This document shows, one piece after another, positions 10,107 through 44,496 of a stretch of DNA of 64,000 bases. The stretch lies in IMG/VR virus record IMGVR_UViG_3300010885_032885, positions 46,769-110,768 of that record. One strand, given 5' to 3'. Position 1 is the first letter of the stretch. Each line of letters opens with the position of its first letter. The notes below the pieces were generated by a model that saw only the letters and a program-made list of their open reading frames with translations, was not told the DNA's origin and did no database searches. The position numbers and the translations under genes are program-made. Source of the DNA: a virus.

Positions 10107-10137
10107 TGTATACATCCCGGAAAGACACTAAGTTAAT

Positions 10138-17243: not shown

Positions 17244-17268
17244 TTAAGACACTAATCTAGACTATACT
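17240..17268 (+). promoter_or_regulatory. Promoter, leaderless (TTGATT-N17-TATACT)
   Basis: A -35 TTGATT at 17240-17245 and a -10 TATACT at 17263-17268 are separated by exactly 17 bases. The helicase ATG begins six bases after the -10 box, so the expected transcription start coincides with the ATG. There is no ribosome binding site in front of this gene, consistent with a leaderless mRNA. Confidence 0.75.
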
Positions 17269-17274
17269 AGTTCT

Positions 17275-24224: not shown

Positions 24225-24226
24225 TA

Positions 24227-29386: not shown

Positions 29387-29711
29387 CGTCAAGAGACAGG
29401 GACTGGCTCGTCGGGATGATGACCCAGTGTTCACTCTTGGAATGGCTGCTGCTTTCTTTGATTTACAGCCTCAAGCATTTAGACGTAAAGAGAATTTAGG
29501 TCAATTTATTGACCGTGAGGGTAATCCTTTGACAATTAGGAGAACCTCTGGTGGAGACAGAAGATATAGTTTAAATGATATCGTTAGAATAGCTCATGGT
29601 CTAAGAAGACAGAGCAAGATGACCGATAGACAGTTGAGACTTATAGTATTAAGAGTGGATGCCTTTAAGGAACCCATTAAAAAACATAGAAAGAGATATC
29701 GAAAAGGATGA
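29367..29711 (+). CDS. MerR-type helix-turn-helix regulator
   Basis: A 114-residue protein with a MerR-like N-terminal DNA-binding region: FTLGMAAAFFDLQPQAFRRKE (helix-turn-helix, given in parts) followed by RRTSGGDRRYSLNDIVRI, the wing typical of MerR and HspR proteins. It has no effector domain or metal-binding cysteines; the C-terminus is basic. It could regulate phage genes or act as an excisionase-like DNA-binding protein. The start at 29367 is chosen for its position inside the previous gene's end. Confidence 0.7.
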   Translation: MSDQPNDVKRQGLARRDDDPVFTLGMAAAFFDLQPQAFRRKENLGQFIDREGNPLTIRRTSGGDRRYSLNDIVRIAHGLRRQSKMTDRQLRLIVLRVDAFKEPIKKHRKRYRKG

Positions 29712-30325
29712 GAATAGCATTTACTGGTAGTCATGGAACCGGCAAGACTACGGCAGCTAGAATTCTAAGAAAGGTTATCAATGAAGAAATGGAAGCAGTC
29801 ACTATTGCTCCTCTTGGAAGTGTCACTCGTAATGTATTGTCTTGGGGCAGTGGTAGCCCAACAAATTCTGGACCAATACTTTCCCCAGAAGGAAACTCCT
29901 TCCAACTAGCCTGTATCTATGAACGTCGTAGAATGATGATGGCTAAAGGTTCTATGTCCGCTGACTTTGTTATTAGTGAGCGATGGGCCATGGACGAGAC
30001 TGCCTATCAACTACACAAGGCCAAAAAGCAAATGATGGACCGTGACACTGGCTTTACTCTTAGAGTGTGTCAGATGGAAATGGACTGGGAGTATCACAAT
30101 TACTGGGACCGAATCTACTATATTCCAGCAGATCAAAGGCCTGTAGACGGGGATGGAACCCGTCCTACTGACAAAGAGTACCAGGTAGATATCGACGAAC
30201 TAATCAAAATGAGCTTGAATATGTACAAGAGATCTACTAAAATTAAAACTATACCCACTAGTTTGGAAGATCTAGAGGACTACTTTAGGAAGGAAGTAGA
30301 GAGTTGGAAAGTCAAGAAAAAGTAG
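29708..30325 (+). CDS. P-loop NTPase / nucleoside kinase-like
   Basis: A 205-residue protein beginning MRIAFTGSHGTGKTT, with Walker A GSHGTGKT at residues 7-14. The SERWAMDETAY motif near residue 97 resembles the DRxx base-binding motif of kinases, and the overall shape resembles AAA_28 / NadR- or thymidylate-kinase-like NTPases. A nucleotide or small-molecule kinase is the best reading; the substrate is not clear. It overlaps both neighbours. Confidence 0.65.
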   Translation: MRIAFTGSHGTGKTTAARILRKVINEEMEAVTIAPLGSVTRNVLSWGSGSPTNSGPILSPEGNSFQLACIYERRRMMMAKGSMSADFVISERWAMDETAYQLHKAKKQMMDRDTGFTLRVCQMEMDWEYHNYWDRIYYIPADQRPVDGDGTRPTDKEYQVDIDELIKMSLNMYKRSTKIKTIPTSLEDLEDYFRKEVESWKVKKK

Positions 30326-31802: not shown

Positions 31803-32153
31803 ATGAGACAATACGTAGGAGCCAAGCTACATGGAATTAGAGTAACTCATAAGAGTTTGGACTACCATGGTTCTGTTACTATTCCAGAAAACTACTGCCT
31901 GGAACTTGGTATTGAAGAATATGAGTGGATCTATTGTGTAAATGCTAACAATGGTCTTCGTTGGGAAACTTATGTACTCTATGGTCCAGATAGAGAGTTC
32001 CACTTAAACGGTGGAGGTGCTCGTTTAGGAGAAATTGGAGACAAGTGTATTCTATTTACTCGTAAAACTAGTACAGAGTATGAACCAGCCAAAGTAATGG
32101 AAATAGATCAGAACAATGAAAAGATTAAGGCCTTTACTTATGACATTGGGTAA
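31803..32153 (+). CDS. panD: Aspartate 1-decarboxylase-like (PanD)
   Basis: A 116-residue protein close to the size of bacterial PanD (about 126). Family residues all appear with a constant offset from E. coli: Lys8, His10, Gly23-Ser24 (self-cleavage site, YHGSVTI), Arg53, Thr56 and Tyr57 (RWETY) and Asn69 (LNGGGAR). PanD cuts itself at Gly-Ser to form a pyruvoyl group and turns L-aspartate into beta-alanine. Here it opens an operon with amidoligases, so the beta-alanine may feed a modification rather than pantothenate. I know of no usual phage role for PanD. Confidence 0.85.
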   Translation: MRQYVGAKLHGIRVTHKSLDYHGSVTIPENYCLELGIEEYEWIYCVNANNGLRWETYVLYGPDREFHLNGGGARLGEIGDKCILFTRKTSTEYEPAKVMEIDQNNEKIKAFTYDIG

Positions 32154-33885
32154 GTTTACTTATGGGTTAGAGCTCGAATGGAGTGATGTAGACCGTAGAA
32201 TAGAACTACCCCCTACTGCCACTTGGAACAAAGATGATGCCACTCTAGTTAACAGTGATGGTCAAGCCAATGACCCCACTATGAAAAAGACTCATCTTGG
32301 TGGAGAGATTAATACTAAACCAACTGACTCTATAGAAGAACAAGTTGCCATCGTAACTGAACTCAGAGATCTTTTAAGTCCTCTATCCTTTTACCGGGCT
32401 AATCTACACGTACATGTAGGAGTAGAAGGCCTAAAAGAGGAACTAGATGCACTAAAGCAACTGTTCCAATATACTCAAGACAATCAAAACTTTGTATACT
32501 TTGATATGCTTCCTTACGCTGAGCCTACGGAAGAGAAGTTCCCAGACAAGGGAGATCTTAAACTAGCAAAAAACTTCTATCGTCAACAAAACTATTGGGC
32601 CAAACAAGGAGTACCATTAAATCGTGCACAAGATATTCTCAATTCAACAACCTGTAAAGAATTTTATGATTACCACTTCCAGTATAATGAAAAGCTCGGA
32701 CGTAGACTCTATCACATCGGAATTGTTCGAGCTGGAATTAACATTAGAGCAATCTTTAAGCACGGGACTACAGAATTTCGTGTCTTTGCCGGAACAACAG
32801 ATCCTGAGCAAGTAAGAGATGCACTAGAGTTTGCCAAGCAATATATGGAAGCTGCTCTGTATAATCCTAGTAGAACTGCTAGAGAAATTTATGAGAGTAA
32901 AACTTGGAACTTCCCTCAATGGCAAGAGTTCCTTCCGGAACTAGAAAAGGGATTTCTAGCGACCAAGCATAAGTATATGGAGTACCCAGACCCTAATGCT
33001 GCAGCAGCAAGAAAAAAGATTATAGAGAAAAGGAAAAAGCGTTTGGGAACTTTTACTTATGGTGCTGAACTAGAGTGGAGTGACTGTGACGCTCGAATTA
33101 AACTACCAGAGGACTGTGGACGATGGAGTCCCAAGGAATGGACCATTGTTAACTCAGATGGTAGAGCCAATGATCCCACTCTCCAGAGAAACTTTTATGG
33201 AGGAGAGATCAATACTCTACCAACAGATTCTATCGAGAGACAAGTAGAGATTGCCTCTACTCTAAGAGACCTGCTAGAACCCAAAGCACTATACCGTGGT
33301 AGTCTACAACTACACATTGGAGTTCCAGGACTAGTAGATGATGTCGAAGCACTCAAGAGTCTATTTGACTATACAATTAAAAACCAAGATTTTGTATTCA
33401 CTGATATGCTGCCTCGTGAACGTCCTAGAGAAGGAGAATATCCTAACAAGCAAGATTATGCATTGGCTATGAAGTTCAATAGACAAAAAAATCTTTGGAC
33501 CAAGCAAGGAGTTCCTCCCACTCGTTGGCAAGCTATTCTAGATGCTACTACTCCTCAAGAGTTTTATGATGGTCACTTTCACTTTAATGAACGACTTGGT
33601 AAGAGACAGTATCATATTGGGGTACACCGTGCAGGTATTAATGTTCGTAGTGTATTTGCTCATGGTACTGTAGAGTTTAGATGTTTCCCCAATACTACTG
33701 ATCCAGAACAAATTCATGACTGTTTTGAGTTTGCTAGACAGTTTGTAGAAGCCGGTCTCTATAACCCAGATAGACCAGCCAAAAGAATCTATGAGAGTAG
33801 AGAATGGAACTTTCCTACTTGGGCTCCCTTTGATGTAGAATTGGAGAAGGGTTTTATAGCAACTGCTCAAAGGCCTAATATCTAA
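32140..33885 (+). CDS. Tandem amidoligase (two COOH-NH2 ligase domains fused)
   Basis: A 581-residue protein made of two similar domains of about 290 residues. Each begins with a GLELEW or GAELEW motif (TLGKFTYGLELEWSD and RLGTFTYGAELEWSD) and has GGEINTxPTDSIE, an LHVHVGV or LQLHIGV strand, FDMLP and a TTEFRVF or TVEFRCF core. These are the acidic and His residues typical of glutamine-synthetase-like amidoligases (Amidoligase_2), which join carboxylates and amines using ATP. The start at 32140 gives domain 1 the same beginning as domain 2. It overlaps PanD by 14 bases, so coupling is likely. Confidence 0.8.
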   Translation: MTLGKFTYGLELEWSDVDRRIELPPTATWNKDDATLVNSDGQANDPTMKKTHLGGEINTKPTDSIEEQVAIVTELRDLLSPLSFYRANLHVHVGVEGLKEELDALKQLFQYTQDNQNFVYFDMLPYAEPTEEKFPDKGDLKLAKNFYRQQNYWAKQGVPLNRAQDILNSTTCKEFYDYHFQYNEKLGRRLYHIGIVRAGINIRAIFKHGTTEFRVFAGTTDPEQVRDALEFAKQYMEAALYNPSRTAREIYESKTWNFPQWQEFLPELEKGFLATKHKYMEYPDPNAAAARKKIIEKRKKRLGTFTYGAELEWSDCDARIKLPEDCGRWSPKEWTIVNSDGRANDPTLQRNFYGGEINTLPTDSIERQVEIASTLRDLLEPKALYRGSLQLHIGVPGLVDDVEALKSLFDYTIKNQDFVFTDMLPRERPREGEYPNKQDYALAMKFNRQKNLWTKQGVPPTRWQAILDATTPQEFYDGHFHFNERLGKRQYHIGVHRAGINVRSVFAHGTVEFRCFPNTTDPEQIHDCFEFARQFVEAGLYNPDRPAKRIYESREWNFPTWAPFDVELEKGFIATAQRPNI

Positions 33886-34751
33886 TGACTACTTATGGGC
33901 TAGAAATAGAGATGGGGGATATTAATCTCCTTAAGGCTGCTCAAGTAGTTTTTAAATTACAAGACATTTCCTTTGAGGAATGGCGAGATAGAGGAGTATC
34001 ACTCAGTGAAAAAGTTCGTAGGTATGATCGTTGGAATATTTCTAGTGATAAAACTATTAGCAATCATAATGGCACTAGGTGTAGAAGACTAGTAATGTTG
34101 CCTGACGGTAGTATTGTTGGAGGCAAAGAAAGCAATAGACAATATTGGCAGGGTGCAGAACTAATCTCTCCGATACTAAGACCTGAAAATATGGAAGAAG
34201 ACTTTTATACTCTTAATAAAATGCTATTAAATCTAGATCTATATGGAGCTGAAATTGACCCAGATCTATTTCATGACCTACATGTTCACGTGGACTTTGG
34301 AGCCCAGAGTGAAACAAACTGGAAAAGATTACTAGAATTTACTGAGTGGGTAAGAGAAGCACAGTATCTATTAATAGCCGTACATGAAGCAGCAACTTCT
34401 CAACATTCTCCCAAGACCTACCGCTATAGTGATGACTTTGTAAATGATCTATTGAAGACCAAGGACTATGAAGAATATAGTTACGAATACCGTAGGCATC
34501 ATAAACTACCGGATGGTTCTAGACAAAGTTTTGAACTATATCAATACCGTAGACTAATCTGCCCTGGTGCTGTTATGGACCCCACTAAGAACTATAATAC
34601 TCTCGAATGGAGAGTGTGGCCGGGTACTAGAGACCCTAAGTTAATTCAAAGGATTGCAGAATTTAGTATTAAAAGCACTGAAAAACTACCAACTCTAGAA
34701 TATGTAAGAGACTGGTCACAAGAAACTATAGAAATGATTAAAAATGGTTAA
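33885..34751 (+). CDS. Third amidoligase domain protein
   Basis: A 288-residue protein of the same superfamily, starting on the last base of the tandem amidoligase stop. It has YGLEIEMGD at the start, GAELISPIL near residue 92, LHVHVDFG around 138-145 and TLEWRVWPGTRDP near 245-257. It is more diverged from the tandem pair than they are from each other. Three amidoligase domains in a row suggest sequential amide-bond formation or different substrates. The Glu/His pattern is complete. Confidence 0.8.
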   Translation: MTTYGLEIEMGDINLLKAAQVVFKLQDISFEEWRDRGVSLSEKVRRYDRWNISSDKTISNHNGTRCRRLVMLPDGSIVGGKESNRQYWQGAELISPILRPENMEEDFYTLNKMLLNLDLYGAEIDPDLFHDLHVHVDFGAQSETNWKRLLEFTEWVREAQYLLIAVHEAATSQHSPKTYRYSDDFVNDLLKTKDYEEYSYEYRRHHKLPDGSRQSFELYQYRRLICPGAVMDPTKNYNTLEWRVWPGTRDPKLIQRIAEFSIKSTEKLPTLEYVRDWSQETIEMIKNG

Positions 34752-35394
34752 AAAAGGATTGGGTAAGTTTGACATCAATACACTGTCAGACGAGCAACGT
34801 AAAGAGTATTGGAATAATTTTACAGAAAAGAAAGTATTGGGACTCTACCGTAAGAGGACTGTTAATTTTGTTCGAGAAAAAGCCAAAGAGATTACAGATT
34901 ATTTTTATGCACTAGACTCTAATGTTACGGTACATGAAGTGGGTTGTGCTTATGCTATGACTCTAAGAAGTATTAACCCAGATATTAAATACCTAGGAAC
35001 TGATCTAGCTGAAAATATGGTCTATGGTTCTCGAGAGATTTATGCTGATTTACCCAATGCTTCTTTCGAAGTAGAAAGTATAGAGAGTGCTTATGACAAA
35101 GGAATACGAGCAGATATAACTCTAGTATTGTGCATGATGGACTCTTTGCCTCATGACTATTCCCTAGAATTACTAGAAAAGGTTATGGCTATGAGTAATA
35201 AAGCTGTTCTATTTATCTCTCAAAGACATGAATTTAATCGAAGTCTAAATGATCCTAACTGGGATTGGAGTCGTAACTTTAATAGTCATGACCCCCAAGA
35301 AATAGTTGAACTAGCTGAAAAGAATGGCTATAATTGTGAATTAGATGTTCGAGAAAAGTATTCGAACTTTGCTGCTACCCTAGTAAGGAAATAA
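34744..35394 (+). CDS. SAM-dependent methyltransferase
   Basis: A 216-residue class I methyltransferase-like protein. The SAM-binding motif I is VHEVGCAYAMTL near residue 63, with YLGTDLAENMV (motif II, an acidic residue after the second strand) and a VLCMMDSLPHD segment. It has no substrate-specific motif. It overlaps the amidoligase gene by eight bases and precedes the DpdA-like gene, so it may methylate a modified base, nucleobase precursor or amidated product. The target is inferred only. Confidence 0.7.
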   Translation: MVKKGLGKFDINTLSDEQRKEYWNNFTEKKVLGLYRKRTVNFVREKAKEITDYFYALDSNVTVHEVGCAYAMTLRSINPDIKYLGTDLAENMVYGSREIYADLPNASFEVESIESAYDKGIRADITLVLCMMDSLPHDYSLELLEKVMAMSNKAVLFISQRHEFNRSLNDPNWDWSRNFNSHDPQEIVELAEKNGYNCELDVREKYSNFAATLVRK

Positions 35395-35395
35395 T

Positions 35396-36259
35396 ATGGA
35401 TTTATATCTGGGTAAACCCCATAAGTTATCTCACCCAAGATCTCTAGGGTATGCTTTATCTCATGAGATGAAAGATTCTACAGTTATTGAATCCTATAAG
35501 ACTATGAACAAACTTGTTCTAGATAATGGTGCAGATGAACTAGGAGAAGGTCAAGGTGGGGCTCGTTTGGCCTACTTGGCTGGACGTTTACAGCCCAACT
35601 GGATTATCCTTCCGGATGTTCTACATAAGGATAAGAAAACTCGTAAGCGTAGTATAGAGTTTTATGAGAGTATAAAAGATACTGACTACCATGGTAAATA
35701 TATGGCAGTTATACAAGCTAAAGATCTCCAAAGTGGGCTAGAGAGCTATAGATTCTGGGATCAGAGTGGTATTATAGATCGTATTGGGGTCACTTATGAT
35801 ACTAAGATTAAGACTGAAACTAGTGAAGGGTTACCTTTCTGGGCTAAAAGATTGGGCTTTCTAGAGCACTTGACCACTAGTCAAGAATTTACTAAGGGTA
35901 ACGGTACAGGCATTCATATGCTCGGCACTCTAGAGGTTCGTGAACTATTTACTCTATTTAGACATCCTATGTTTAAAAAGATACTGGAACTAGGACTAGT
36001 GCATAGTCATGATACTACTGCACCCTATGCCTGCCCTACTAAGTTTAAGGCTCTTAGAAATATTTCTTTTGGTAGAGACAAAGACTGGACTCCATTAGAC
36101 TTTAGTAGAACTTATACTCGAGAAGAACAAGAAGTGATTGCTTGGAATGTTGCTTGCTATCTAGCTGCCTGTAAGATACCCAAAGAACAGTGGGAACAGT
36201 ATCTAGGCTTTAGTGATATTAATCTTCTATGGGGAGAGCTTGAAAAGTATTATGGATAA
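35396..36259 (+). CDS. dpdA: DpdA-like 7-deazaguanine DNA transglycosylase
   Basis: A 287-residue protein resembling phage DpdA, the tRNA-guanine-transglycosylase relative that swaps guanine for a 7-deazaguanine in DNA. Visible TGT-like residues include Asp74 in LPDVLH, His174-Met-Leu-Gly (HMLGTLEVR) and Asp206 in SHDTTAPY near the C-terminus. The HMLG loop and SHDT fit substrate binding and the base-exchange Asp. It lies within a block that also holds FolE, QueD and QueE. Which base it inserts cannot be read from sequence. Confidence 0.7.
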   Translation: MDLYLGKPHKLSHPRSLGYALSHEMKDSTVIESYKTMNKLVLDNGADELGEGQGGARLAYLAGRLQPNWIILPDVLHKDKKTRKRSIEFYESIKDTDYHGKYMAVIQAKDLQSGLESYRFWDQSGIIDRIGVTYDTKIKTETSEGLPFWAKRLGFLEHLTTSQEFTKGNGTGIHMLGTLEVRELFTLFRHPMFKKILELGLVHSHDTTAPYACPTKFKALRNISFGRDKDWTPLDFSRTYTREEQEVIAWNVACYLAACKIPKEQWEQYLGFSDINLLWGELEKYYG

Positions 36260-37202
36260 AAGTACACTCCTAATCTTTGATGGACACAATATCTTTATTC
36301 GTGGCTATAGTGGATTAATGAAACAAGAACTAAGAAATAGTGATGGAGTTGGTACTTGGGGAGTCTACGGTACAATTAATACTATTTCTAGTATGATTCG
36401 TAGATTCGAACCTTCTCATGTTCTTATTGCTTTTGATCAGGGTAGAAGTAGTAAACGATTAGCTATCGACCCACAGTATAAGGCCAACCGTAATCGTAAG
36501 AAAGAAGAAAATGAAGAACCAGTAGTTGATGAGTTTAGACCTCAACTAGAACTAGTCTTTGAAATTGTAAAGAGTATGGGTATACCCTACTTACGCTTAC
36601 AAGATGTAGAAGCAGATGATATTATAGCCAAGGCAGCAACTGCTTTTGGCCCAGTATTTGATAAAGTAGTAATTGTTAGTGCCGATCACGATATACGTCA
36701 ATTAATTCGTAAAAATGTTATTGTAGTAAAGCCCAGTTTAGGGCAGAGCAAAGATACTAAAGAAGAGATCTTTGATGTAGAGTCAGTTGTAGATGAGTGG
36801 GGAATAGACCCCTGGAGACTACCAGAGATTTGGGCTCTTATGGGAGATAAAGGAGACAATATCCCTGGAGTCCCCGGCATTGGCCCCAAAAAGGCAACCA
36901 AACTAATACAAGATTATGGCTCTCTAGACAATATCTTTAATGAAGGTAATGATAAGATCTCCCCTCATGAAGAAGTGGTACGTAGAGCATTTAGTCTAAT
37001 TGAGCTAAAGGGACTAGATGATATTCCATTTCCACCTCTAGGTAATTTACAGTTTAAACCTGTAGTACCAGATACCCCACATCATGGAGAACACCTATTA
37101 AAGTTGTTTGATTACTTTGAACTTAATAGTATTAAGGATAGATGGCTTAAAGGCACACTATGGACCGAATCTACATTTGGAAGGAAATTATTCAATGAAT
37201 AA
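36252..37202 (+). CDS. 5'-3' exonuclease / flap endonuclease
   Basis: A 316-residue PIN/FEN-type nuclease. It starts at ATG 36252, eight bases inside the previous gene. Signatures are LLIFDGHNIFIRGY at the N-terminus, VEADDIIAKAA, VIVSADHDIRQL, and ALMGDKGDNIPGVPGIGPKKATKLI (helix-hairpin-helix, given in parts). The acidic metal ligands (Asp in DG, EADD, SADHD, GDKGD) are present. It removes RNA primers or flaps during replication. It sits oddly inside the biosynthetic block, before the LuxE-like gene. Confidence 0.85.
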   Translation: MDKSTLLIFDGHNIFIRGYSGLMKQELRNSDGVGTWGVYGTINTISSMIRRFEPSHVLIAFDQGRSSKRLAIDPQYKANRNRKKEENEEPVVDEFRPQLELVFEIVKSMGIPYLRLQDVEADDIIAKAATAFGPVFDKVVIVSADHDIRQLIRKNVIVVKPSLGQSKDTKEEIFDVESVVDEWGIDPWRLPEIWALMGDKGDNIPGVPGIGPKKATKLIQDYGSLDNIFNEGNDKISPHEEVVRRAFSLIELKGLDDIPFPPLGNLQFKPVVPDTPHHGEHLLKLFDYFELNSIKDRWLKGTLWTESTFGRKLFNE

Positions 37203-38268
37203 GAACGAGATTGATAGAGCTATAAAGAATGCTACTGAGTTTGTTAGGAATCCGTTACACCAAGAGAAGTTTGGTGAGATTGCACTCGGACTCTATGATC
37301 TACATCGAGAATTAAATCCAGTATACGAGCGTTATAGTATTGGAGAACTCTCTGACTGGAGAGAAATTCCACTTATGCCTATTAGTGAGTTTAAAAGACA
37401 TGATGTAGGTATTGTACTTAGTGACCGTATGCCCTTTCCCGGAATAGAATTTCACTCTAGTGGTACTACTCAAGGTGATAAGAGTATGCATCGTATGTAT
37501 GATACTGAAGCCTATAGAATTAGTATTGCAGAAGGGTTTAGAGCATTTGTAGATGGTTCTCCATTCCCCAAGTATCGAGTGATATTGTTAACTCCAGTAT
37601 TAGGTAATAGTAGTCTCTACTATATGATGGTACATATCTCAGCTCAGCATGATCGTAGAGGAATTACTGAACGTTTTGAAGGAATGACTGACCCCCAGAG
37701 AGTCAGAAGTTTTATTGAATTAGATCTAGCAAAAGAGGAAGAACCAGTATTGTTATTTGGTACTAGTTTAGCTTTCTATGACCTAATGACTACAATTAAT
37801 AATTCTTCTCTAATGCCCATAAAACTTCCAGAAGGTTCTATATTTATTGAAACTGGTGGTTGGAAGGGCAGAGATATTAAACTTACTGCTAGTCAACTAA
37901 CCGCTAGGGTATCTGACTTTTTTGGGATTAGTCCTCAAGATAGTATTCGAGAATATAGTATGAGTGAAATTAGTAGCCAACTTTATGCTACCGGTAACTC
38001 TCAAGAAGTAGAATACGAATGGCCTAACTGGTTAAATGTTCGTTTAGTAGACCCACTTACTCAGACTGAAGTTAAAGATGGGGAAAGTGGAATTATTGCC
38101 TTTGTAGATCTAGCCAATATCTGGAGTTGTCCTTTTATATTAACTGAAGATGTGGGTCACTTTAAGTATAGTTCAGATGGGCCTCCAACACTAGTATTGG
38201 AAGGAAGGGCAACCAATGCTCCTGAGAAAGGATGTAGCTTAACTTATGCCCAAGCAATGGATAATTAA
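37195..38268 (+). CDS. LuxE-like acyl-activating enzyme
   Basis: A 357-residue protein of the acyl-protein synthetase (LuxE) family. It starts at ATG 37195 with AAGGAAA upstream. The ATP-binding loop is SSGTT at residues 88-92, with PLMPISEFK before it, FIETGGWKG around residues 218-226, YSMSEISSQLY (the ANL-like adenylation motif) and EGRATNAPEKGCSLT at the end. LuxE activates a carboxylic acid as an acyl-AMP and passes the acyl group to itself and then to LuxC. In lux systems the acid is a fatty acid; here the acid is unknown. It overlaps the LuxC-like gene by 23 bases. Confidence 0.8.
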   Translation: MNKNEIDRAIKNATEFVRNPLHQEKFGEIALGLYDLHRELNPVYERYSIGELSDWREIPLMPISEFKRHDVGIVLSDRMPFPGIEFHSSGTTQGDKSMHRMYDTEAYRISIAEGFRAFVDGSPFPKYRVILLTPVLGNSSLYYMMVHISAQHDRRGITERFEGMTDPQRVRSFIELDLAKEEEPVLLFGTSLAFYDLMTTINNSSLMPIKLPEGSIFIETGGWKGRDIKLTASQLTARVSDFFGISPQDSIREYSMSEISSQLYATGNSQEVEYEWPNWLNVRLVDPLTQTEVKDGESGIIAFVDLANIWSCPFILTEDVGHFKYSSDGPPTLVLEGRATNAPEKGCSLTYAQAMDN

Positions 38269-39286
38269 TCCAGAAGTAGATATGGTTGGTGTACTTTCTC
38301 AGTATGGACGATTTCTAGAGACTGACTATCGTATGGCCATAGAGGCCATGGAGGTCCCCAGGGAGTTTGAAGAGTATACTGAAAAGAGTGGTAGAAAGTT
38401 TGTTATTATTGGTGCCAAGAGTGTGCCTGGTGCTACTGCTAAAAGTGTCTTCTTATGCCTTAAGCTTGCTGGCCCCGAGAGTGTAACTATTAAAGCACCC
38501 ACTCTAGATGAATATTTCTTAATTGAGAATGTGATAGAACATCACGGTAAAGATGTTCAAACTAAAGTCTTTAATACTGCTAGTGATGAATTAAAACTTT
38601 CTGAGGAGTGGAGAACTGCTCTAGAAGAAGCCACTGATGTAGTGGTCTTTGGAGGACAAGATACAGTAGACGCCTTTATTGGTCTAGAGAGTGAACATAG
38701 AACAGTACACGTCCATGGACCCAAGTTTAGTTTTGGGATAATTCGTGCTGAGGATCTTACTCCAGTTACCATTAATGAAATTTGTTTTGATTTCTTTTCT
38801 TTCTATGGAGAAGGTTGCCTAAGTCCCAAGTTCTATATAATTATAGGACGTGTTAGTGAAAAGCAATGGAAAGAAATTAGTGACATTATGACTGTTATGT
38901 ATGGAGAAATGGTCGATCAGTTTAGAGGTAAACTGCCACTAACTCGTAAGAGTGAATTAGTACAGCAATTTATCTCTGCTAATTATGTACAAAAGTATAT
39001 TCGCAGAGAAGAGTTGATAAGTCCTGAGATTTTTACTACACTATATGGAGATGCTAGATTTTGTGTAGTAGACTACCTTGATGAAGTAGAAGAATTTATC
39101 GAGAAGTGGCATAGTAGTATTAGTACAGTAGCCTGTCTTCGAGAAGATGACGGAATAAATGATATACTAGAAGACCTTATGGTTACTAGAATTTGTGACC
39201 TCGGTTATATGCAGTTTCCACAATTCTTTGAACAGTTTGATACTGTTGATGATTTTGATATATATGTAGGAGATACCAGTGGATGA
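38246..39286 (+). CDS. LuxC-like acyl reductase
   Basis: A 346-residue protein with the hallmarks of LuxC, a NADPH-dependent reductase of activated acids to aldehydes. VVVFGGQDTVDAF around residue 131, HGPKFSFGI around 152, and the catalytic Cys191 in GEGCLSPK match the family (LuxC QQGCLSPQ). It is shorter than typical LuxC (about 480), having a reduced N-terminal part. It overlaps the LuxE-like gene and so likely forms a complex with it. It would reduce the acid bound by LuxE to an aldehyde. Confidence 0.75.
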   Translation: MPKQWIINPEVDMVGVLSQYGRFLETDYRMAIEAMEVPREFEEYTEKSGRKFVIIGAKSVPGATAKSVFLCLKLAGPESVTIKAPTLDEYFLIENVIEHHGKDVQTKVFNTASDELKLSEEWRTALEEATDVVVFGGQDTVDAFIGLESEHRTVHVHGPKFSFGIIRAEDLTPVTINEICFDFFSFYGEGCLSPKFYIIIGRVSEKQWKEISDIMTVMYGEMVDQFRGKLPLTRKSELVQQFISANYVQKYIRREELISPEIFTTLYGDARFCVVDYLDEVEEFIEKWHSSISTVACLREDDGINDILEDLMVTRICDLGYMQFPQFFEQFDTVDDFDIYVGDTSG

Positions 39287-39473
39287 AGAATATCAGTTCC
39301 AAGTTGGGGATATAGTTACAGTTAAGACTAGTCTAGGCCAAGTGGTCGGTAAAGCCATCGATGGTAGAGTTATTGTAGAGTGGGTCTATGACGAGATTGA
39401 TCCCTATAGTACAGAAGATCTATTTTTAATTGAACAAAAGAAAGAAGAAGATGGACTTTCTAGCGAGAACTAA
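39279..39473 (+). CDS. Small protein with SH3-like fold, unknown function
   Basis: A 64-residue protein with a GTG start supported by AGGAG upstream, overlapping the reductase by eight bases. It begins DEEYQFQVGDIVTVKTSLGQVVGKAIDG, given in parts, a beta-barrel KOW/SH3-like pattern, and ends with a charged tail. It might be a small subunit of the reductase/aminotransferase complex because of its position. Confidence 0.5.
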   Translation: MDEEYQFQVGDIVTVKTSLGQVVGKAIDGRVIVEWVYDEIDPYSTEDLFLIEQKKEEDGLSSEN

Positions 39474-40644
39474 CCCTTGGCCCTATGATATTACTATTAG
39501 AGGTGCACAAGGTAGCTACCTACATACCAAAGAGTATGGTGATATGTTTGATATGGCTTGTGGTATTGCTGTTAATAATATGGGTCATAACTATGGACCT
39601 ATTCAAAAGGCAGTCAAGAGGACAGTAGAGAAGTATGCTCATATTAATGTCTACGGTGAGTTTAATATTAAAGAGCAATTGAAATATGCTGAAGCTCTTG
39701 CCGAAAGGTTTTCTACTCTAACTATGAGTAATGGTATTGCCGAAGAGTGTAGAACTTGGTTCTGTACTAGTGGTACCGAAGCAAATGAACTAGCAATGAA
39801 GTTAGCCACTCTCTCAACTGGGAGACAGGGTTTTATAGCACTAAAGGATGGATTCCATGGTCGTAGTCTCGGTAGTCTTAGTCTCACTTATAAGCCAACT
39901 TATCGTGAGCCTTTCGCTCATATGGTTAGTCCGGAGCTTACTCGGTGGGTCCAGCAGGGAGAAGAAATCCCAGAGGAATATGGAAACCGAGCTGCTTTCT
40001 TTATGGAACTCGTACAGGGGGAAGCTGGGGTAGTACCCATTGACCCTGAATGGGCCAAGTATGTTAGTGACTGGTGTAAGAGCCACGGAGTACTATTGGT
40101 AATTGATGAAGTACAGACGGGTTTTGGTAGAACTGGTACTCAGTTTGTACTAGATCAGTATCAAGATGTACACCCAGATATAGTTACACTAGGTAAGGCT
40201 CTTGGTGGTGGATATCCTCTAGGAGCAGTTTTGTCTAGTAGTGAACGATGGAACTCTATGAGCGTAGACAATCCCTTTACTCACTTGAGCACCTTTGGAG
40301 GAAATCCTGTTAGTGTTGCCGCTGGGTATGCTATGTTTCGAGCCACTAGTGACCCAGTGTTTTTGGCTCAGGTAAGGTCTCGTGGTGAACAGGCACGACA
40401 TGCTTTTCAAGGCTGCACTGAAGCTAGTCTACATGGATTGGGACTTATGCTCGGTATGAAGATCAATACCGATACTGATGTAGAGATTGATGGACTAGTA
40501 CAGAGAATTTGGAACAATAAAGTATTTACTGGACGTGTACTATACGGAGCCAATGTTGTAAGACTATATGCTGCTCTAAACTCTCCGAGTGGAGATCTAG
40601 TTGCAGCTTTCTTGCGTGTAAGAGCAGCAGTAGAGGAGAACTAG
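39451..40644 (+). CDS. Class III PLP aminotransferase
   Basis: A 397-residue fold type I aminotransferase. It starts at ATG 39451, inside the preceding gene's end. GSYLHTKEYGDMFD and a WFCTSGTEANELAMKL segment are typical of class III (ornithine, GABA and GSA aminotransferases); VIDEVQTGFGRTG is the cofactor-binding Asp region and Lys249 in TLGKALGGGYPLGA binds PLP. This family usually moves an amino group to or from a terminal aldehyde. Right after a LuxE/LuxC pair it would convert an aldehyde to a primary amine. The substrate is inferred. Confidence 0.85.
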   Translation: MDFLARTNPWPYDITIRGAQGSYLHTKEYGDMFDMACGIAVNNMGHNYGPIQKAVKRTVEKYAHINVYGEFNIKEQLKYAEALAERFSTLTMSNGIAEECRTWFCTSGTEANELAMKLATLSTGRQGFIALKDGFHGRSLGSLSLTYKPTYREPFAHMVSPELTRWVQQGEEIPEEYGNRAAFFMELVQGEAGVVPIDPEWAKYVSDWCKSHGVLLVIDEVQTGFGRTGTQFVLDQYQDVHPDIVTLGKALGGGYPLGAVLSSSERWNSMSVDNPFTHLSTFGGNPVSVAAGYAMFRATSDPVFLAQVRSRGEQARHAFQGCTEASLHGLGLMLGMKINTDTDVEIDGLVQRIWNNKVFTGRVLYGANVVRLYAALNSPSGDLVAAFLRVRAAVEEN

Positions 40645-40645
40645 T

Positions 40646-41392
40646 ATGAAACATATACGTGTAAGTATGAGTCATAACTTTAAGAGACAGACTCCAGGTA
40701 TACAGCCCAACATTGAGAACGTAAAACCTGTTCTAAGAGTAATGCCCAAATGGATGAGAGATATGCCACTATGGGGTGGAGATGGTACAGTGGGGACCTA
40801 TGATGATGGGAAAACTATCCCCACTATAAAGTTCTGTATGCCAGTACTCGATGCATTAACTGTAGGCTATGTTATAACACTTGCCGAAGATGTTGTCATT
40901 ACTCAAGATGAGAACAGTACTAGTTTTTCTTGTACTCCTAGTCTAATTAGTGGACATGATTTAATGCAGATTCCTGACTACCCCATTCCAGAGGGTTATG
41001 ATGAAGCCATCCATAAATGGAACTGTGACTATATATTAGCAGCTCCTCGTGGTTATAGTATTCTATGGGTTAACCCTCTACATAGACATGAACTACCCTT
41101 CTACTGCCTTCCAGGAATAGTGGACACTGATCGTTTTAATGCCATGAGTGTCAATTTCCCATTTGTCTTAAAGAAAGGTTGGACAGGCACTATACCCAAA
41201 GGTACTCCAATTATACAAGCCATCCCGTTTAAAAGACATCGCTGGGGACTTCGTGAAGGAGTTATTGGTGCTCGTAAATTTCATCGTTTTGAGTGGAAGT
41301 ATAAGGGTAGACCAGAAAAGCCTAAAACTCTAAGATTATATCAAACTGGGTTTAGAACTAAAAAGATTTTTAAAGGATTTGGGAAGGACTAG
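40646..41392 (+). CDS. Conserved phage protein, DUF6065-like (copy 2)
   Basis: A 248-residue paralogue of the protein at 25489. Shared features are the CMPVLDALTVGYVITLAEDV block, PRGYSILWVNPLHRHELPF, and AIPFKRHRW near the end. It is basic at both termini (final RTKKIFKGFGKD). It follows the aminotransferase by one base, so it belongs to the same operon. The function is unknown; its repeated association with biosynthesis genes is worth noting. Confidence 0.6.
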   Translation: MKHIRVSMSHNFKRQTPGIQPNIENVKPVLRVMPKWMRDMPLWGGDGTVGTYDDGKTIPTIKFCMPVLDALTVGYVITLAEDVVITQDENSTSFSCTPSLISGHDLMQIPDYPIPEGYDEAIHKWNCDYILAAPRGYSILWVNPLHRHELPFYCLPGIVDTDRFNAMSVNFPFVLKKGWTGTIPKGTPIIQAIPFKRHRWGLREGVIGARKFHRFEWKYKGRPEKPKTLRLYQTGFRTKKIFKGFGKD

Positions 41393-41393
41393 T

Positions 41394-41594
41394 GTGCAGG
41401 ATCTAGTAGAGATGTTGATCTTTCGATTAACAGGAGCCAAGAATAATATACGAGCATTTGCCCCACATGTAGATGACTCAGATGCACCTTTAAACTATGA
41501 ACTAGGACGGTATCATGCCTATGGAATTGTTGAGAGTTGGATTGAGCAATGGCAATGGGAAGAAAAACTTAAAACAGTTGTTCCCGAAGAATAA
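41394..41594 (+). CDS. Small protein of unknown function
   Basis: A 66-residue protein. The GTG at 41394 is preferred to an in-frame TTG at 41379 because GGAAGG lies about seven bases ahead of it. It is mostly helical, with a Trp-rich helix (ESWIEQWQWEEKL) near the C-terminus. No motif is recognised. Confidence 0.5.
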   Translation: MQDLVEMLIFRLTGAKNNIRAFAPHVDDSDAPLNYELGRYHAYGIVESWIEQWQWEEKLKTVVPEE

Positions 41595-41606
41595 AAGCAC
41601 TATAAT
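41578..41606 (+). promoter_or_regulatory. Promoter (TTGTTC-N17-TATAAT)
   Basis: TTGTTC at 41578-41583 and a perfect TATAAT at 41601-41606 with a 17-base spacer. The expected start near 41613 gives a short leader with TAGGAG before the QueD ATG at 41628. It lies over the end of the previous gene, so this promoter would drive the QueD-QueE-FolE set. Confidence 0.75.
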
Positions 41607-41627
41607 TAATATCAGTTAGGAGTAAGA

Positions 41628-42086
41628 ATGAATCTTATTAGTAAAGAAATCGAATTTGATCTAGGACACCGTGTTAGTACTCATGGTAGCAAATGTCGAA
41701 ACCCACACGGTCACCGTTATAAAGTTCGAGTAACCTGTGAAGGAGATATAATTGATGACCCTAGTCGTCCTGATCACGGAATGCTTATTGACTTTGGTAA
41801 TCTTAAGACAATTATGAACAATAGAATTCATGATATCCTAGACCATGGGTTTGCTGTTTGGCAAAATGACGATATAGTTCGTAGTATGATGGAAACTATT
41901 TCCCAAGAGCAAGACTGGAACTATATTGTGTTCCCCTATATCCCTACAGCAGAAAATATTGCTCGTTGGGGTTGGGAGCAGATTGAGAACGACATTGAGG
42001 TAGAATTTGGTAACGATCTTAAGTTGTATGAAGTAGCCGTGTGGGAAACTCCTACATCGGTAGCCTATTGTAGAGGAGTAAAATAA
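41628..42086 (+). CDS. queD: 6-carboxytetrahydropterin synthase (QueD)
   Basis: A 152-residue protein matching QueD/PTPS, a zinc enzyme that makes 6-carboxy-5,6,7,8-tetrahydropterin from dihydroneopterin triphosphate. FDLGHRVSTHGSKCRNPHGH gives Cys23 and zinc-binding His14, His27 and His29; later PTAENIARWGWEQI and VAVWETPTSVAYC carry the family's conserved Glu. It is the second step of the 7-deazaguanine pathway. The start follows a ribosome binding site and its own promoter. Confidence 0.9.
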   Translation: MNLISKEIEFDLGHRVSTHGSKCRNPHGHRYKVRVTCEGDIIDDPSRPDHGMLIDFGNLKTIMNNRIHDILDHGFAVWQNDDIVRSMMETISQEQDWNYIVFPYIPTAENIARWGWEQIENDIEVEFGNDLKLYEVAVWETPTSVAYCRGVK

Positions 42087-42262
42087 TGAATAAAACACTA
42101 AAAGGTTTTTTGGGTTTTTTAGGTGGTCTCACTGGTGGTAATAACAATGTCCCAGATATCCCACTCCCAATGGAAGTAGAAGCTCCAAAGCCTGTAAAGA
42201 AAGCCACTACTAAAAAGGCTACACCTGCTAAGAAAGCAGCACCAAAGAAGAAGGAACAATAA
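42086..42262 (+). CDS. Small Ala/Lys-rich basic protein
   Basis: A 58-residue protein whose ATG overlaps the QueD stop (TAATG). The N-terminus is Gly/Phe-rich and hydrophobic (LKGFLGFLGGLTGG). The second half is a histone-H1-like tail of Lys, Ala, Thr and Pro (PVKKATTKKATPAKK). It likely binds nucleic acid or acidic protein. It is short but its tight coupling and composition support it. Confidence 0.55.
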   Translation: MNKTLKGFLGFLGGLTGGNNNVPDIPLPMEVEAPKPVKKATTKKATPAKKAAPKKKEQ

Positions 42263-42453
42263 TGCATGTAATGTTAGTATTAATTTTTCCAGCACTATTC
42301 TTTATGGGTGTTGGGGCTTTTATTCATATGTTTAGCCAAGGTGTAAAGAATGGTATCTACCAGAAGACAGTGTCTCCAGAGCAGGTCAAGAGAATCTCTA
42401 AAAAGCAACAGGCTTGTGGTTGTGGTGAATGCACCTGTGGTAAAAAGAAGTAA
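42262..42453 (+). CDS. Small membrane protein with Cys-rich tail
   Basis: A 63-residue protein. Residues 3-24 form one transmembrane helix (VMLVLIFPALFFMGVGAFI). The cytoplasmic or external tail ends with CGCGECTCGKKK, a metal-binding-like cluster of four cysteines. It overlaps the previous gene's stop. The function is unknown; a membrane anchor for a metal centre is possible. Confidence 0.55.
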   Translation: MHVMLVLIFPALFFMGVGAFIHMFSQGVKNGIYQKTVSPEQVKRISKKQQACGCGECTCGKKK

Positions 42454-42455
42454 CT

Positions 42456-42563
42456 ATGGAACGAATCGGTAACGAAGATACTGGCTGGTTTAACGATAAG
42501 TTAAAGATGGCAGATGACCTACCAACTACTGAGAAAGTAGAAGAGGAAGAAGAAAATGGCTGA
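42456..42563 (+). CDS. Very small acidic protein
   Basis: A 35-residue frame starting two bases after the previous stop and overlapping the QueE start by eight bases. It is acidic, ending in a run of Glu (VEEEEENG). The coding frame contains no stop and is coupled to both neighbours, but the shortness makes it uncertain. Confidence 0.4.
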   Translation: MERIGNEDTGWFNDKLKMADDLPTTEKVEEEEENG

Positions 42564-43266
42564 TCTAAGATTAGTAGAACATTATGTTAGTACCCAGGGT
42601 GAAGGTCCTAGAACCGGAATTCCTACACACTTTGTAAGATTTGCCGGTTGTAATATGACTTGTGCTGGCTGGCCTTGTGATACTCCTTTTGCTGTAGATC
42701 CTAAGATCTGGGGAGCAGAAGGTGGTAGTTACAAGCGTACCCCAGAAGAACTTCTCAAAGACTGCAAAGACAAGAGAGAAGAAACTGGAGCCAATAATAT
42801 CTGTTTAACTGGAGGAGAACCCTTTCTACAGCCCAATAGTAAAATGGAAGAACTCATTGTGCTATTGGTCAGTGAAGGATTTGAAGTAGAGAGTTTTTCT
42901 AATGGTAGTTTTATCTATAGTGAGAATGTTCTTAGAACTGTTAACTTTATGATGGACTGGAAACTATTGGGTTCTGGTGAAGGGGACACTAAACTAGAAA
43001 ATCGTAGAACTAATGCTCTCAATCTTCGTAGTGGTAGTGGTATTAAGTTTGTCTGTAAAGACAGACACGACTTTGAACTAGCCATTGAAGTATGGAATAG
43101 TCTCAAGGATGAAGTCAAGCCGGGAGTTCGATTCTGGGCTGGTAGTGCTTGGGATGTGTTTCCTACTAGTGAACTAGTAGAACTAATTCTAGAGAACAAG
43201 CTCCCTTGGAGTCTAAATGTACAAGTACACAACTATATCTGGCCTGCTAATGAACGTGCACGCTAG
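42556..43266 (+). CDS. queE: 7-carboxy-7-deazaguanine synthase (QueE-like radical SAM)
   Basis: A 236-residue radical SAM enzyme. The cluster is C32-x3-C36-x4-C41 (CNMTCAGWPC), not the usual C-x3-C-x2-C, but is followed by DT, as in QueE. STQGEG near residue 12 and CLTGGEPFLQ around 87-96 (SAM binding) fit the family. QueE converts carboxytetrahydropterin to 7-carboxy-7-deazaguanine. The two-residue insertion in the cluster loop is unusual; the enzyme is otherwise of normal length. It lies between QueD and FolE. Confidence 0.85.
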   Translation: MADLRLVEHYVSTQGEGPRTGIPTHFVRFAGCNMTCAGWPCDTPFAVDPKIWGAEGGSYKRTPEELLKDCKDKREETGANNICLTGGEPFLQPNSKMEELIVLLVSEGFEVESFSNGSFIYSENVLRTVNFMMDWKLLGSGEGDTKLENRRTNALNLRSGSGIKFVCKDRHDFELAIEVWNSLKDEVKPGVRFWAGSAWDVFPTSELVELILENKLPWSLNVQVHNYIWPANERAR

Positions 43267-43394
43267 TGAGGTGTAGTGAGTGTACCGGAGACTTTAGTAA
43301 AGCCTCTAGGGCAGTAGAACCCAAAGAACTAATCACTTGTGATTTTTGTAATGCAGAATTTTATATATCTAAAAAAGAAAAGAAAGAAGAGTAA
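43266..43394 (+). CDS. Small zinc-ribbon protein
   Basis: A 42-residue frame with a GTG start overlapping the QueE stop (TAGTG). It has CSECT near the N-terminus (Cys3, Cys6) and TCDFCNAEFY (Cys25, Cys28), a classic CxxC-x18-CxxC zinc ribbon, and a Lys/Glu-rich end. It is six bases before the FolE ATG. Its function is unknown. Confidence 0.55.
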   Translation: MRCSECTGDFSKASRAVEPKELITCDFCNAEFYISKKEKKEE

Positions 43395-43399
43395 GTATT

Positions 43400-43963
43400 A
43401 TGTACCTAGATGAAGGTAAAGTAGCAGTAAAGGCACTCCTGGCCTCAATGGGAGAAGATACAGAGCGTGAAGGTCTATTGGACACTCCTCGTAGAGTATC
43501 AGAAATGTATCAAGAGTTGACTGCTGGTTATAATATTGACCCTCAAGCTCTTGTAGAAAAAGCTATCTTTAAAGAAGGTTCAAATGAAATGGTTATCGTC
43601 CGTGACATCCCGTTCTATAGCCTTTGTGAGCACCACCTTGCTCCTTTCTTTGGTACTGCTACTATTGGGTATATCCCTAAGGGCGGTCGTGTTGTTGGGC
43701 TCAGTAAATTGGCTCGGGTACTTGATGCTTATAGCAAAAGACTCCAAGTACAAGAGAGACTAGGAAGTCAGATTGCTGACACTCTCTACGATTGTGGACT
43801 ACAACCTCAAGGTGTAGGAGTCTATATTTCGGCCGAGCATCTTTGTATGGCCATGCGAGGAGTACAGAAGCCGGGAACTAGTACAGTGACCAGTACACTT
43901 CGTGGTAACTTCGTAGAACCTTCTGTTAAGGACGAGTGGCTAAGGGCAGTATCAGGACGATAA
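43400..43963 (+). CDS. folE: GTP cyclohydrolase I
   Basis: A 187-residue FolE. Key motifs are RDIPFYSLCEHHLAPFFG (zinc-binding Cys and His), a RLQVQERLGSQIAD segment and SAEHLCMAMRGVQKPG (second zinc Cys and active-site residues). It opens GTP to dihydroneopterin triphosphate, the first step of the 7-deazaguanine pathway. It overlaps the next gene by one base. In this context it feeds QueD rather than folate synthesis. Confidence 0.9.
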   Translation: MYLDEGKVAVKALLASMGEDTEREGLLDTPRRVSEMYQELTAGYNIDPQALVEKAIFKEGSNEMVIVRDIPFYSLCEHHLAPFFGTATIGYIPKGGRVVGLSKLARVLDAYSKRLQVQERLGSQIADTLYDCGLQPQGVGVYISAEHLCMAMRGVQKPGTSTVTSTLRGNFVEPSVKDEWLRAVSGR

Positions 43964-44496
43964 TGAACGGTATTGTTAACCCTAAGGATGTCGTAGACTT
44001 TGGTTTTATTACCGGAGTAGATGAAGAAGATATCCAACCGAATAGTATTGACTTAAGAGTAGAAAATGTCTATACTATCAATGGGCCCCTGGTATTGTTT
44101 GCCAATAAAGAAAATCAAAGGCAACTGCCAGAATACTCTCCTCTTAGAGCTTTTAGCTACCCTGTAGATGTAGAGCTTAAAAATAGTGTAGATATGTACC
44201 GTTTAGAACCCGGACAGAGATACCAGATAGAGTTTAGTGCTAAGCTAGACCTACCCGGTAATATTTGTGGACTTACTCTGGTTAGAAGTACTATGGCCAA
44301 GAGTGGGTGTAGTGGAGAAAATGGTCTATTCGATAGTGGGTATCAAGGAGCATGTGGTATGATGGTCTCAGTACAAGCCGAGAGCTATATCGAAGTAGGT
44401 TCTAGTATTGCCCAGATGTTGTTCTTCAATGCAAGTAGTTCAAAGATGTATAATGGTTTTTATCAAGGAACTAGTTCCCCAATGGAGTGGTCGTAA
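43963..44496 (+). CDS. dUTPase/dCTP deaminase-family protein
   Basis: A 177-residue protein. It starts at the ATG that overlaps the FolE stop. SIDLRV near the N-terminus, LVRSTMAKSG (phosphate-binding motif) and GLFDSGYQG (family motif 3) place it in the dUTPase/dCTP deaminase fold. The Glu used for catalysis in dCTP deaminases is not obvious after GYQGACGMMV, so the activity may be dUTP/dCTP hydrolysis or a regulatory role. It would adjust the nucleotide pools. It belongs to the queD operon. Confidence 0.7.
   Translation: MNGIVNPKDVVDFGFITGVDEEDIQPNSIDLRVENVYTINGPLVLFANKENQRQLPEYSPLRAFSYPVDVELKNSVDMYRLEPGQRYQIEFSAKLDLPGNICGLTLVRSTMAKSGCSGENGLFDSGYQGACGMMVSVQAESYIEVGSSIAQMLFFNASSSKMYNGFYQGTSSPMEWS

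Follow-up and report, generated by a model that had tools for sequence, protein, structure and literature searches.

Bacteria make the queuosine of their tRNA by way of preQ1 (7-aminomethyl-7-deazaguanine), which also occurs as a base of phage DNA. To our knowledge the only steps leading to it from 7-carboxy-7-deazaguanine (CDG) are those of QueC and QueF, a route that costs two ATP, ammonia and two NADPH. Cui et al. are said to have reported in 2023 four later phage 7-deazaguanines, including CDG and methylated or formylated preQ1 in DNA, reportedly with no description of a LuxC/LuxE or aminotransferase route. In dsDNA phages with DpdA systems for dG+, dPreQ1 and dPreQ0, genes for FolE, QueD and QueE cluster with that of a TGT/DpdA-fold transglycosylase (Hutinet et al. 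2019, PMC6884629). In excerpts of that paper a first group of phages has QueC plus ArcS, QueF/QueF-L or Gat-QueC, and dPreQ1 was detected in phages with QueF. The locus described here shares the four clustered functions but, compared to the systems of these excerpts, it has LuxE, LuxC and a class III aminotransferase instead, QueC and QueF not being found. Flavobacterium phage immuto (MW353176) is likewise annotated with QueD, QueE, FolE and DpdA together, and its DpdA, an annotated DNA guanine transglycosylase, is the best annotated tblastn match to the DpdA-like protein studied here (31% over 104 aa). Immuto differs by its annotated QueF and formyltransferase.

The window analysed is a stretch of 64,000 nt of the record IMGVR_UViG_3300010885_032885 (positions 46,769 to 110,768), from an uncultured phage, with the cluster of interest at 31803-43963. 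The presence of genes for FolE, QueD, QueE, a DpdA-like protein, LuxE, LuxC and PanD, claimed in the preliminary description, was borne out by Pfam, PHROGs, NCBIfam and fold comparisons. All named genes lie at or close to where they had been placed, and the gene cluster is real. Seven genes form the core, coding the DpdA-like protein, LuxE, LuxC, the aminotransferase, QueD, QueE and FolE:

29708..30325, + strand, AAA_28 P-loop kinase-like gene, pathway-associated (Pfam AAA_28 4.1e-9)
31803..32153, + strand, PanD-like aspartate 1-decarboxylase, accessory (Pfam PF02261 1.3e-23)
32116..33885, + strand, tandem double amidoligase, accessory (Pfam Amidoligase_2 PF12224 8.2e-11, two stretches)
33885..34751, + strand, second amidoligase, accessory (Pfam Amidoligase_2 3.2e-10)
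34744..35394, + strand, class I methyltransferase-like protein, weakly assigned, accessory (PHROG methyltransferase 8.4e-6)
35396..36259, + strand, DpdA-like DNA-guanine transglycosylase, core (AlphaFold model, Foldseek, VIA-align, tblastn)
36255..37202, + strand, 5'-3' exonuclease (FEN), between DpdA and LuxE (Pfam 3.3e-38)
37195..38268, + strand, LuxE-like acyl-protein synthetase, core (Pfam LuxE PF04443 1.6e-11)
38246..39286, + strand, LuxC-like acyl reductase, core (Pfam LuxC PF05893 2.7e-6, above cut-off)
39451..40644, + strand, class III aminotransferase, core (Pfam aminotransferase III 7e-68)
41628..42086, + strand, QueD, 6-carboxytetrahydropterin synthase, core (Pfam PTPS 5.6e-32)
42556..43266, + strand, QueE, CDG synthase, core (PHROG QueE-like 1.2e-30; Pfam radical SAM 3.5e-8)
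43400..43963, + strand, FolE, GTP cyclohydrolase I, core (Pfam 2.3e-69)
43951..44496, + strand, dCTP deaminase/dUTPase-like gene, pathway-associated (Pfam DCD 3.7e-16)

CDG would be produced from GTP by FolE, QueD and QueE, all present in the window according to Pfam, PHROGs and NCBIfam; CDG as the product presupposes QueD and QueE functions that are assigned by homology. FolE scores above its NCBIfam cut-off (folE, 1.1e-66) and QueD under it (1.8e-23, 82.8 bits for a cut-off of 89.25). In NCBIfam the radical SAM protein scores best with QueE models (up to 1.3e-29, under curated cut-offs), and in PHROGs the two proteins are named QueD-like and QueE-like. The distant lineage L036, whose LuxE is ~43% identical, has a QueE of another subtype at the same locus position, with a best NCBIfam model of the B. 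subtilis type (below cut-off) and 66 bits against the profile built from the QueE of this analysis. The core order is kept there despite the other subtype, which argues that what is conserved is the supply of CDG and not a given type of QueE.

QueC, not seen in the window by the preliminary description, was not found in the remainder of the record either. A QueC or QueF gene elsewhere in the phages can be ruled out for the records searched, which are linear and may be fragments: QueC was found in 0/11 pathway records (six lineages) and in none of the four records without the pathway, and QueF in 0/9 pathway records. The canonical dPreQ1 pathway, requiring phage-encoded QueC and QueF, is thus not what the pathway records code. 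FolE gives a faint match to QueF-II (19.8 bits, NCBIfam cut-off 86.9); FolE and QueF belong to the same fold family. The host could supply the products of QueC and QueF, which counts against the QueC- and QueF-independent route proposed below.

Searches of Pfam, PHROGs and NCBIfam gave no family for the DpdA-like protein encoded in the window, and its profile gave one chance match only among solved sequences (E 0.85). Its AlphaFold model (pLDDT 79) has the TGT fold that 7-deazaguanine modification of phage DNA requires: TGTs are all of the 50 Foldseek matches listed (best E 2.4e-5), and VIA-align superimposes the model on DpdA 7ui4 (Z 13.7, 222 aligned, rmsd 3.5). The protein is predicted to exchange guanine in DNA for a 7-deazaguanine base. 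In VIA-align, DpdA is tied with phosphonopyruvate hydrolase and PEP mutase, which is put down to the barrel fold that these enzymes have in common. Assignment to the TGT fold by structure, with no DpdA family model matched, would also suit a cluster that acts on tRNA, or one whose product is a free metabolite of the deazaguanine type, in place of DNA modification. Such a role is very improbable, given that the best annotated phage match is a DNA guanine transglycosylase and that DpdA 7ui4 stands slightly above TGTs in VIA-align (13.7 vs 13.0, a tie under the rule of the tool).

LuxC/LuxE-type enzymes supply the aldehyde in luminous bacteria. The sequence of the phage LuxE and the fold of the phage LuxC match both chains of a single solved complex, the LuxC-LuxE fatty acid reductase 7xc6. 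Chain 7xc6_E (LuxE) is the sole match of the LuxE profile within E 0.001 among solved sequences (E 7.9e-17), and the SSGTT and C-terminal GCSL stretches align with it; we take these to be the ATP motif and the acyl-carrying cysteine, respectively. The terminal C347 is invariant in five lineages and in L036, hence in 6/6 pathway lineages. LuxE reaches 44 bits for a cut-off of 550 with the NCBIfam model of fatty-acid LuxE, and its scan of bacterial and archaeal genomes gave one match only, at 24% identity. The Pfam LuxC family is matched by 5/6 LuxC homologues that were scanned; one of them comes from a pathway-less phage. The LuxC model, which has low confidence (pLDDT 68, with residues 1-46 below 50), has 7xc6_A LuxC as its top fold (Foldseek 5.4e-9; Z 17.5, 305 aligned). 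Sequence comparison with solved LuxC gives a weak match (E 0.07-0.19), in which Cys191 aligns to a cysteine of solved LuxC (E 0.07), and the catalytic cysteine is found in 6/6 pathway lineages. The window LuxC is ~130 residues shorter than that of 7xc6 (346 vs 477) and 16% identical to it and, unlike the enzymes of luminous bacteria, the phage LuxC and LuxE sit in a nucleobase gene cluster. The aminotransferase has, besides its Pfam class III match, a conserved lysine, K248 (LGKA motif), presumably the PLP lysine, which is invariant in four lineages; seven solved sequences lie within E 1e-50, all acetylornithine-type. Searches of phages with LuxE and LuxC (tblastn, 50,697 records, E 0.01) and with the cluster (megablast) gave no match.

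These assignments point to a route in which LuxE and LuxC probably reduce CDG, the aminotransferase makes preQ1 and DpdA inserts it in DNA, without QueC or QueF. LuxE would adenylate the CDG carboxylate with ATP and hold the acyl group as a thioester. LuxC, of the aldehyde-dehydrogenase fold, would then accept this acyl group at its cysteine, where reduction with NAD(P)H would yield 7-formyl-7-deazaguanine, whose aldehyde the class III aminotransferase would turn to the primary amine of preQ1. The three enzymes would replace nitrile formation by QueC and nitrile reduction by QueF. CDG may be reduced before its insertion, as the free base, or afterwards, as dCDG in DNA. Direct observations are the gene complement and its co-occurrence across lineages, together with protein folds and residue conservation; the substrate and product of each step are those we infer.

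Five lineages beyond that of the window carry DpdA-LuxE-LuxC-aminotransferase, followed by QueD-QueE-FolE except in L011, where the contig ends earlier; the full core is found in 5/6 lineages. The six pathway lineages are syntenic with one another, also in the flanking replication genes, and co-occurrence may partly reflect common descent. DpdA, LuxE, QueD, the aminotransferase, QueE and FolE are absent from 4/4 whole records (G010-G013) of three related lineages, a joint absence that amounts to one clade. The missing genes make three separate gaps between retained genes. Two other genes travel with the pathway: the AAA_28 kinase-like gene is found in 6/6 pathway lineages and the dCTP deaminase/dUTPase-like gene in the 5/5 whose locus reaches that far (L011 ends earlier), and neither is in the loci of L022-L024. 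The FEN exonuclease is kept in pathway-less phages and is probably outside the pathway. The scans of viral contigs used short exact peptide patterns that miss distant copies (the DpdA scan missed L036), so that unlisted contigs are weak evidence of absence.

The joint absence bears on whether LuxE, LuxC and the aminotransferase belong to a separate pathway, for instance of virion, lipid or host-surface chemistry, with host QueC and QueF completing the deazaguanine route. In an excerpt of PMC11945000, an amidoligase cluster of another phage is discussed as a peptidoglycan-modification module. LuxC-like proteins occur also without LuxE, DpdA or the aminotransferase in six related lineages (three searched as whole records and three, L040, L044 and L047, covered at their loci). 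The catalytic cysteine is kept in two of these six, which suggests that LuxC serves or once served a different function, or that it persists once the pathway is lost, and counts against a simple form of the proposed route. A separate pathway for LuxE, LuxC and the aminotransferase is nevertheless quite unlikely: LuxE and the aminotransferase are missing from all four whole records that miss DpdA, QueD, QueE and FolE, even though the two lie in different gaps flanking two retained genes, and a phage using host preQ0 or preQ1 would need no QueE of its own.

Strict coupling of the LuxC cysteine to the pathway was considered and rejected. It fitted the first nine lineages and failed in 2/3 new ones, L040 and L044 keeping the cysteine with no pathway genes in their loci, while L047 has serine. 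The LuxC columns that differ in L022-L024 are no evidence either, since their number (13, including one start-codon gap) barely exceeds the 9 of another trio. The comparison of the LuxC cysteine in pathway-less lineages left out L041 and L050 (LuxC identical to L040 and L044, respectively), L042 and L043 (identical to L040) and L049 (LuxC split). Trees had a single row per lineage, the LuxC of L025 being identical to that of L022.

PanD, the amidoligases and the methyltransferase adjoin dpdA in 3/6 lineages. PanD covers PF02261 nearly in full (residues 2-106, profile 3-113 of 115), with an NCBIfam panD match below cut-off (5.8e-17); it is found in 3/6 pathway lineages, while the remaining three, searched as whole records (G002, G008, G014), lack it. 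The methyltransferase-like gene, weak also in Pfam (0.007, under cut-off), is present in 3/6 lineages, only those with PanD. The tandem amidoligase corresponds to separate genes in L011 and L012 and to one copy in L005, and the best-matching copies of the second amidoligase are confined to PanD lineages. G008 and G014 have the full core with no PanD, amidoligase or methyltransferase, and G002 has one amidoligase and neither PanD nor methyltransferase. LuxE, LuxC and the aminotransferase therefore need none of these genes, which are accessory and outside the core, and the PanD product is rejected as their required substrate.

The accessory genes relate to another reading, in which dCDG or decarboxylated CDG is inserted and LuxE, LuxC and the aminotransferase act on another acid, for instance an amino acid, the resulting amine being joined by an amidoligase to the CDG carboxylate. 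The base dCDG is reported from phages, and PanD and the amidoligases are next to dpdA in half of the lineages. In the CmoA-CmoX-CmoY system of cytosine hypermodification, according to excerpts of PMC12783734, a base of phage DNA likewise bears a carboxyl handle, which is paired with an ATP-dependent amide ligase, amide ligation by CmoY to the carboxylate of carboxymethylcytosine being demonstrated. That system differs in these excerpts by its base (cytosine), by a ligase related to asparagine synthetase and by an acid that is kept as amide, not reduced. The reading is unlikely, as PanD is missing from three lineages and G008 and G014 have LuxE, LuxC and the aminotransferase with no amidoligase of the same family, hence no such ligase to join an amine to CDG.

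With the full core free of accessory genes in G008 and G014, its simplest reading is a new route to preQ1, which is already known from phage DNA (dPreQ1), and not a new base. Conversion of CDG to an amine placed in DNA, as the preliminary description had it, is probable, while its PanD-derived group drops out of the core, and the hypermodification that it envisaged is possible as an accessory step only. PanD would make beta-alanine, which is one example of a group that the accessory genes may attach to the amine as further decoration; a base hypermodified through PanD and amidoligases is a possibility that we infer for the 3/6 lineages with these genes. The combined proposal, in which CDG is reduced and transaminated to preQ1 independently of QueC and QueF and the lineages with the PanD module carry in their DNA a hitherto unseen aminoacylated (e.g. 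beta-alanyl), methylated aminomethyl-7-deazaguanine, is tentative.

If the proposed route is correct, reductive transamination would be a second solution for preQ1 chemistry, apparently cheaper at one ATP, one NADPH and glutamate, and might account for the apparent lack of QueC or QueF in some organisms. LuxC and LuxE would gain a nucleobase substrate, and the primary amine would give phages an extra handle for decoration of their DNA.

All genes named in the preliminary description, which had proposed a possible undescribed 7-deazaguanine hypermodification pathway, are present in the window (positions 46769-110768, the final 64 kb of a virus record 110,768 bases long). The weakest calls are those of the methyltransferase (Pfam 0.007, below cut-off; PHROG 8.4e-6) and of the DpdA-like protein. 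A WhiB-like gene at position 21142 (Pfam 1.3e-15) suggests an actinobacterial host. Elsewhere in the window, a tandem pair of 2OG-Fe(II) oxygenase genes adjoins a glycosyltransferase-like gene (23658-24799, Pfam).

Relatives were gathered from IMG/VR with DpdA, LuxC and LuxE queries. Their gene tables were built from local profiles and agree with a comparison of the window ORFs at 25400-50300 made without prior selection. The system is carried by six lineages: the window together with a 132-kb relative (DpdA 99%, LuxC and LuxE 100% identical), the viral contig loci L005/L006 and L013-L016 (LuxC identical within each group), L011, L012 and the distant L036. DpdA, the 5'-3' exonuclease FEN encoded between DpdA and LuxE, LuxE, LuxC and a class III aminotransferase are found in 6/6 lineages, while QueD, QueE, FolE and a dCTP-deaminase-like gene occur in all five that reach that far, L011 ending inside the aminotransferase gene. 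PanD and the methyltransferase are found in three of the six (window, L011 and L012), each with at least three amidoligase domains; a single amidoligase gene is present in L005. For the remaining lineages, one whole record each was checked (G002, G008 and G014). All seven core genes, FEN not counted among them, are found in each, PanD and the methyltransferase were not found in any, and amidoligases of the window's family were not found in G008 and G014. PanD, the methyltransferase and the amidoligases therefore form an accessory module.

The genes of an AAA_28 kinase-like protein (29708-30325) and of the dCTP-deaminase-like protein (43936-44496) track the presence and absence of the pathway. 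A UvdE-like UV endonuclease gene (30709-31731, Pfam 4e-40) lies in the loci of 3/6 pathway lineages. One family has four members in one phage (window 25489-26223 and 40646-41392; L001:3658-4341 and 4341-5090); the member at 40646 is phrog_7084, of unknown function, and only in the lineage of the window does it separate the aminotransferase gene from queD. Locus L002 codes for a 1770-residue protein built of many similar repeats (12772-18084) and a 498-residue Cys-rich repeat protein (10639-12135).

The DpdA-like protein of the window phage has no match to any family model. In a structure model built from five sequences (pLDDT 79), the 50 Foldseek matches listed are all tRNA-guanine transglycosylases (best E 2.4e-5). 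Superposition on the DNA preQ0 insertase DpdA (7ui4) with VIA-align gives Z 13.7 over 222 aligned residues, a score with which other barrel enzymes tie. The sequence shares 31% identity over 104 residues with a Flavobacterium phage immuto protein annotated as a DNA guanine transglycosylase, and 25% over 122 residues with a Bacillus phage protein whose annotation is hypothetical. The alignment of all three keeps LDN, PD, HxLG and SxDTxxP, which we take to be the TGT catalytic regions.

LuxE matched one solved protein by profile, 7xc6_E (7.9e-17), which is LuxE in the LuxC-LuxE complex from Photobacterium; its SSGT motif and terminal GCSL cysteine align with this chain. The LuxC profile is weak against solved LuxC by sequence (E 0.07-0.19); the best fold of its low-confidence model (pLDDT 68) is, by both methods, the LuxC chain of that complex (Foldseek 5.4e-9; Z 17.5, 305 residues aligned, rmsd 6.0). 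Seven solved sequences lie within E 1e-50 of the aminotransferase, all of the acetylornithine type, enzymes whose substrates are terminal aldehydes and amines.

These assignments fit a route that accounts for the seven core genes, with putative substrates. FolE, QueD and QueE would yield 7-carboxy-7-deazaguanine (CDG), whose carboxylate LuxE would adenylate and keep as a thioester. LuxC would reduce the thioester to the aldehyde, the aminotransferase would convert this to the aminomethyl base preQ1, and DpdA would insert preQ1 into DNA. The co-travelling AAA_28 kinase and dCTP-deaminase-like genes are left unexplained by this route. Action of LuxE, LuxC and the aminotransferase on beta-alanine instead is disfavoured because 3/6 lineages are without PanD, as is ligation of an amine to CDG, because the whole records of two lineages are without an amidoligase of the window's family. 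In lineages with PanD and amidoligases, the amine could plausibly carry a beta-alanyl or similar group, since a phage base, carboxymethylcytosine, has been demonstrated to undergo enzymatic amide ligation (PMC12783734). A phage amidoligase cluster is also discussed as a peptidoglycan modifier (PMC11945000).

L036 is 36% (DpdA), about 43% (LuxE) and 44% (LuxC) identical to the window, and its QueE is of another subtype. Its best NCBIfam model is B. subtilis QueE (1.2e-32), that of the window QueE a different one (1.3e-29), both below the curated cut-offs, and it reaches only 66 bits against a profile of the other lineages' QueE proteins. Gene order around it is unchanged, which points to CDG, and no particular QueE protein, as the probable shared need. 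The QueE cysteine spacing is CX3CX4C in the window, L005, L012 and L013 and CX3CX2C in L036.

Four records of 62-132 kb (G010-G013, loci L022-L025), standing for three lineages as the LuxC of L022 and L025 are identical, retain FEN and a LuxC-like protein; DpdA, LuxE, QueD, the aminotransferase, QueE and FolE are each found in 0/4. The AAA_28 kinase and dCTP-deaminase-like genes are also missing from loci L022-L024, where the missing genes correspond to three distinct gaps, one ahead of FEN, one separating FEN from LuxC and one following LuxC. In the LuxC tree and the FEN tree alike, a single branch (100/100 in each) sets all phages without the pathway apart from the rest, and the joint absence thus counts as one event.

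The LuxC catalytic cysteine is Ser in L022-L024, at first suggesting strict coupling to the pathway. Three further LuxC lineages have loci free of pathway genes; the residue is Ser in L047, but Cys in L040 and L044 breaks this coupling (Cys in 6/6 pathway lineages versus 2/6 others). The contigs of these three were not listed by LuxE and DpdA scans, which can miss distant copies. The SVPxATAKS motif is intact in 6/6 pathway lineages and altered in 6/6 others, a comparison of one clade with the rest. LuxC-like proteins with no LuxE or deazaguanine genes nearby are encoded in L040-L044, L047, L050 and L022-L025 (Ser in four lineages, Cys in two). L049 LuxC also has Cys and was excluded from the count as a split copy; its gene, in two open frames (10001-11133), is decaying or an assembly error. 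The presence of LuxC in lineages without the pathway, with Cys kept in L040 and L044, means that LuxC outlives or pre-dates the pathway; it may have a second role.

For the preliminary description, a QueC or QueF gene elsewhere that supplies the base would have refuted its proposal. QueC was found in 0/11 pathway records and in none of four without the pathway (15 in all, several being near-copies, the pathway ones standing for six lineages), and QueF in 0/9 pathway records covering all six lineages; every record is linear and may be a fragment. As controls, QueC was matched in 12/14 genomes and QueF in 8/14. FolE faintly matches QueF-II (19.8 bits, cut-off 86.9), in keeping with their shared fold. 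In contrast, QueF is annotated in the immuto cluster, home of the best annotated DpdA match, and, in the sections consulted of Hutinet et al. (PMC6884629), dPreQ1 is reported from phages with QueF, and a phage group has QueC plus ArcS, QueF/QueF-L or Gat-QueC. None of 50,697 phage records matched LuxC or LuxE. In the open literature searched, LuxC occurs together with deazaguanine in one paper, as part of a transposon reporter name; the term carboxylic acid reductase occurs together with deazaguanine terms in one paper, inside a cited reference; and the 7-formyl base appears in chemical synthesis. No LuxC/LuxE-type biosynthetic route was found there. Compared with this open literature, the biosynthetic route is possibly new within an otherwise known type of deazaguanine system.
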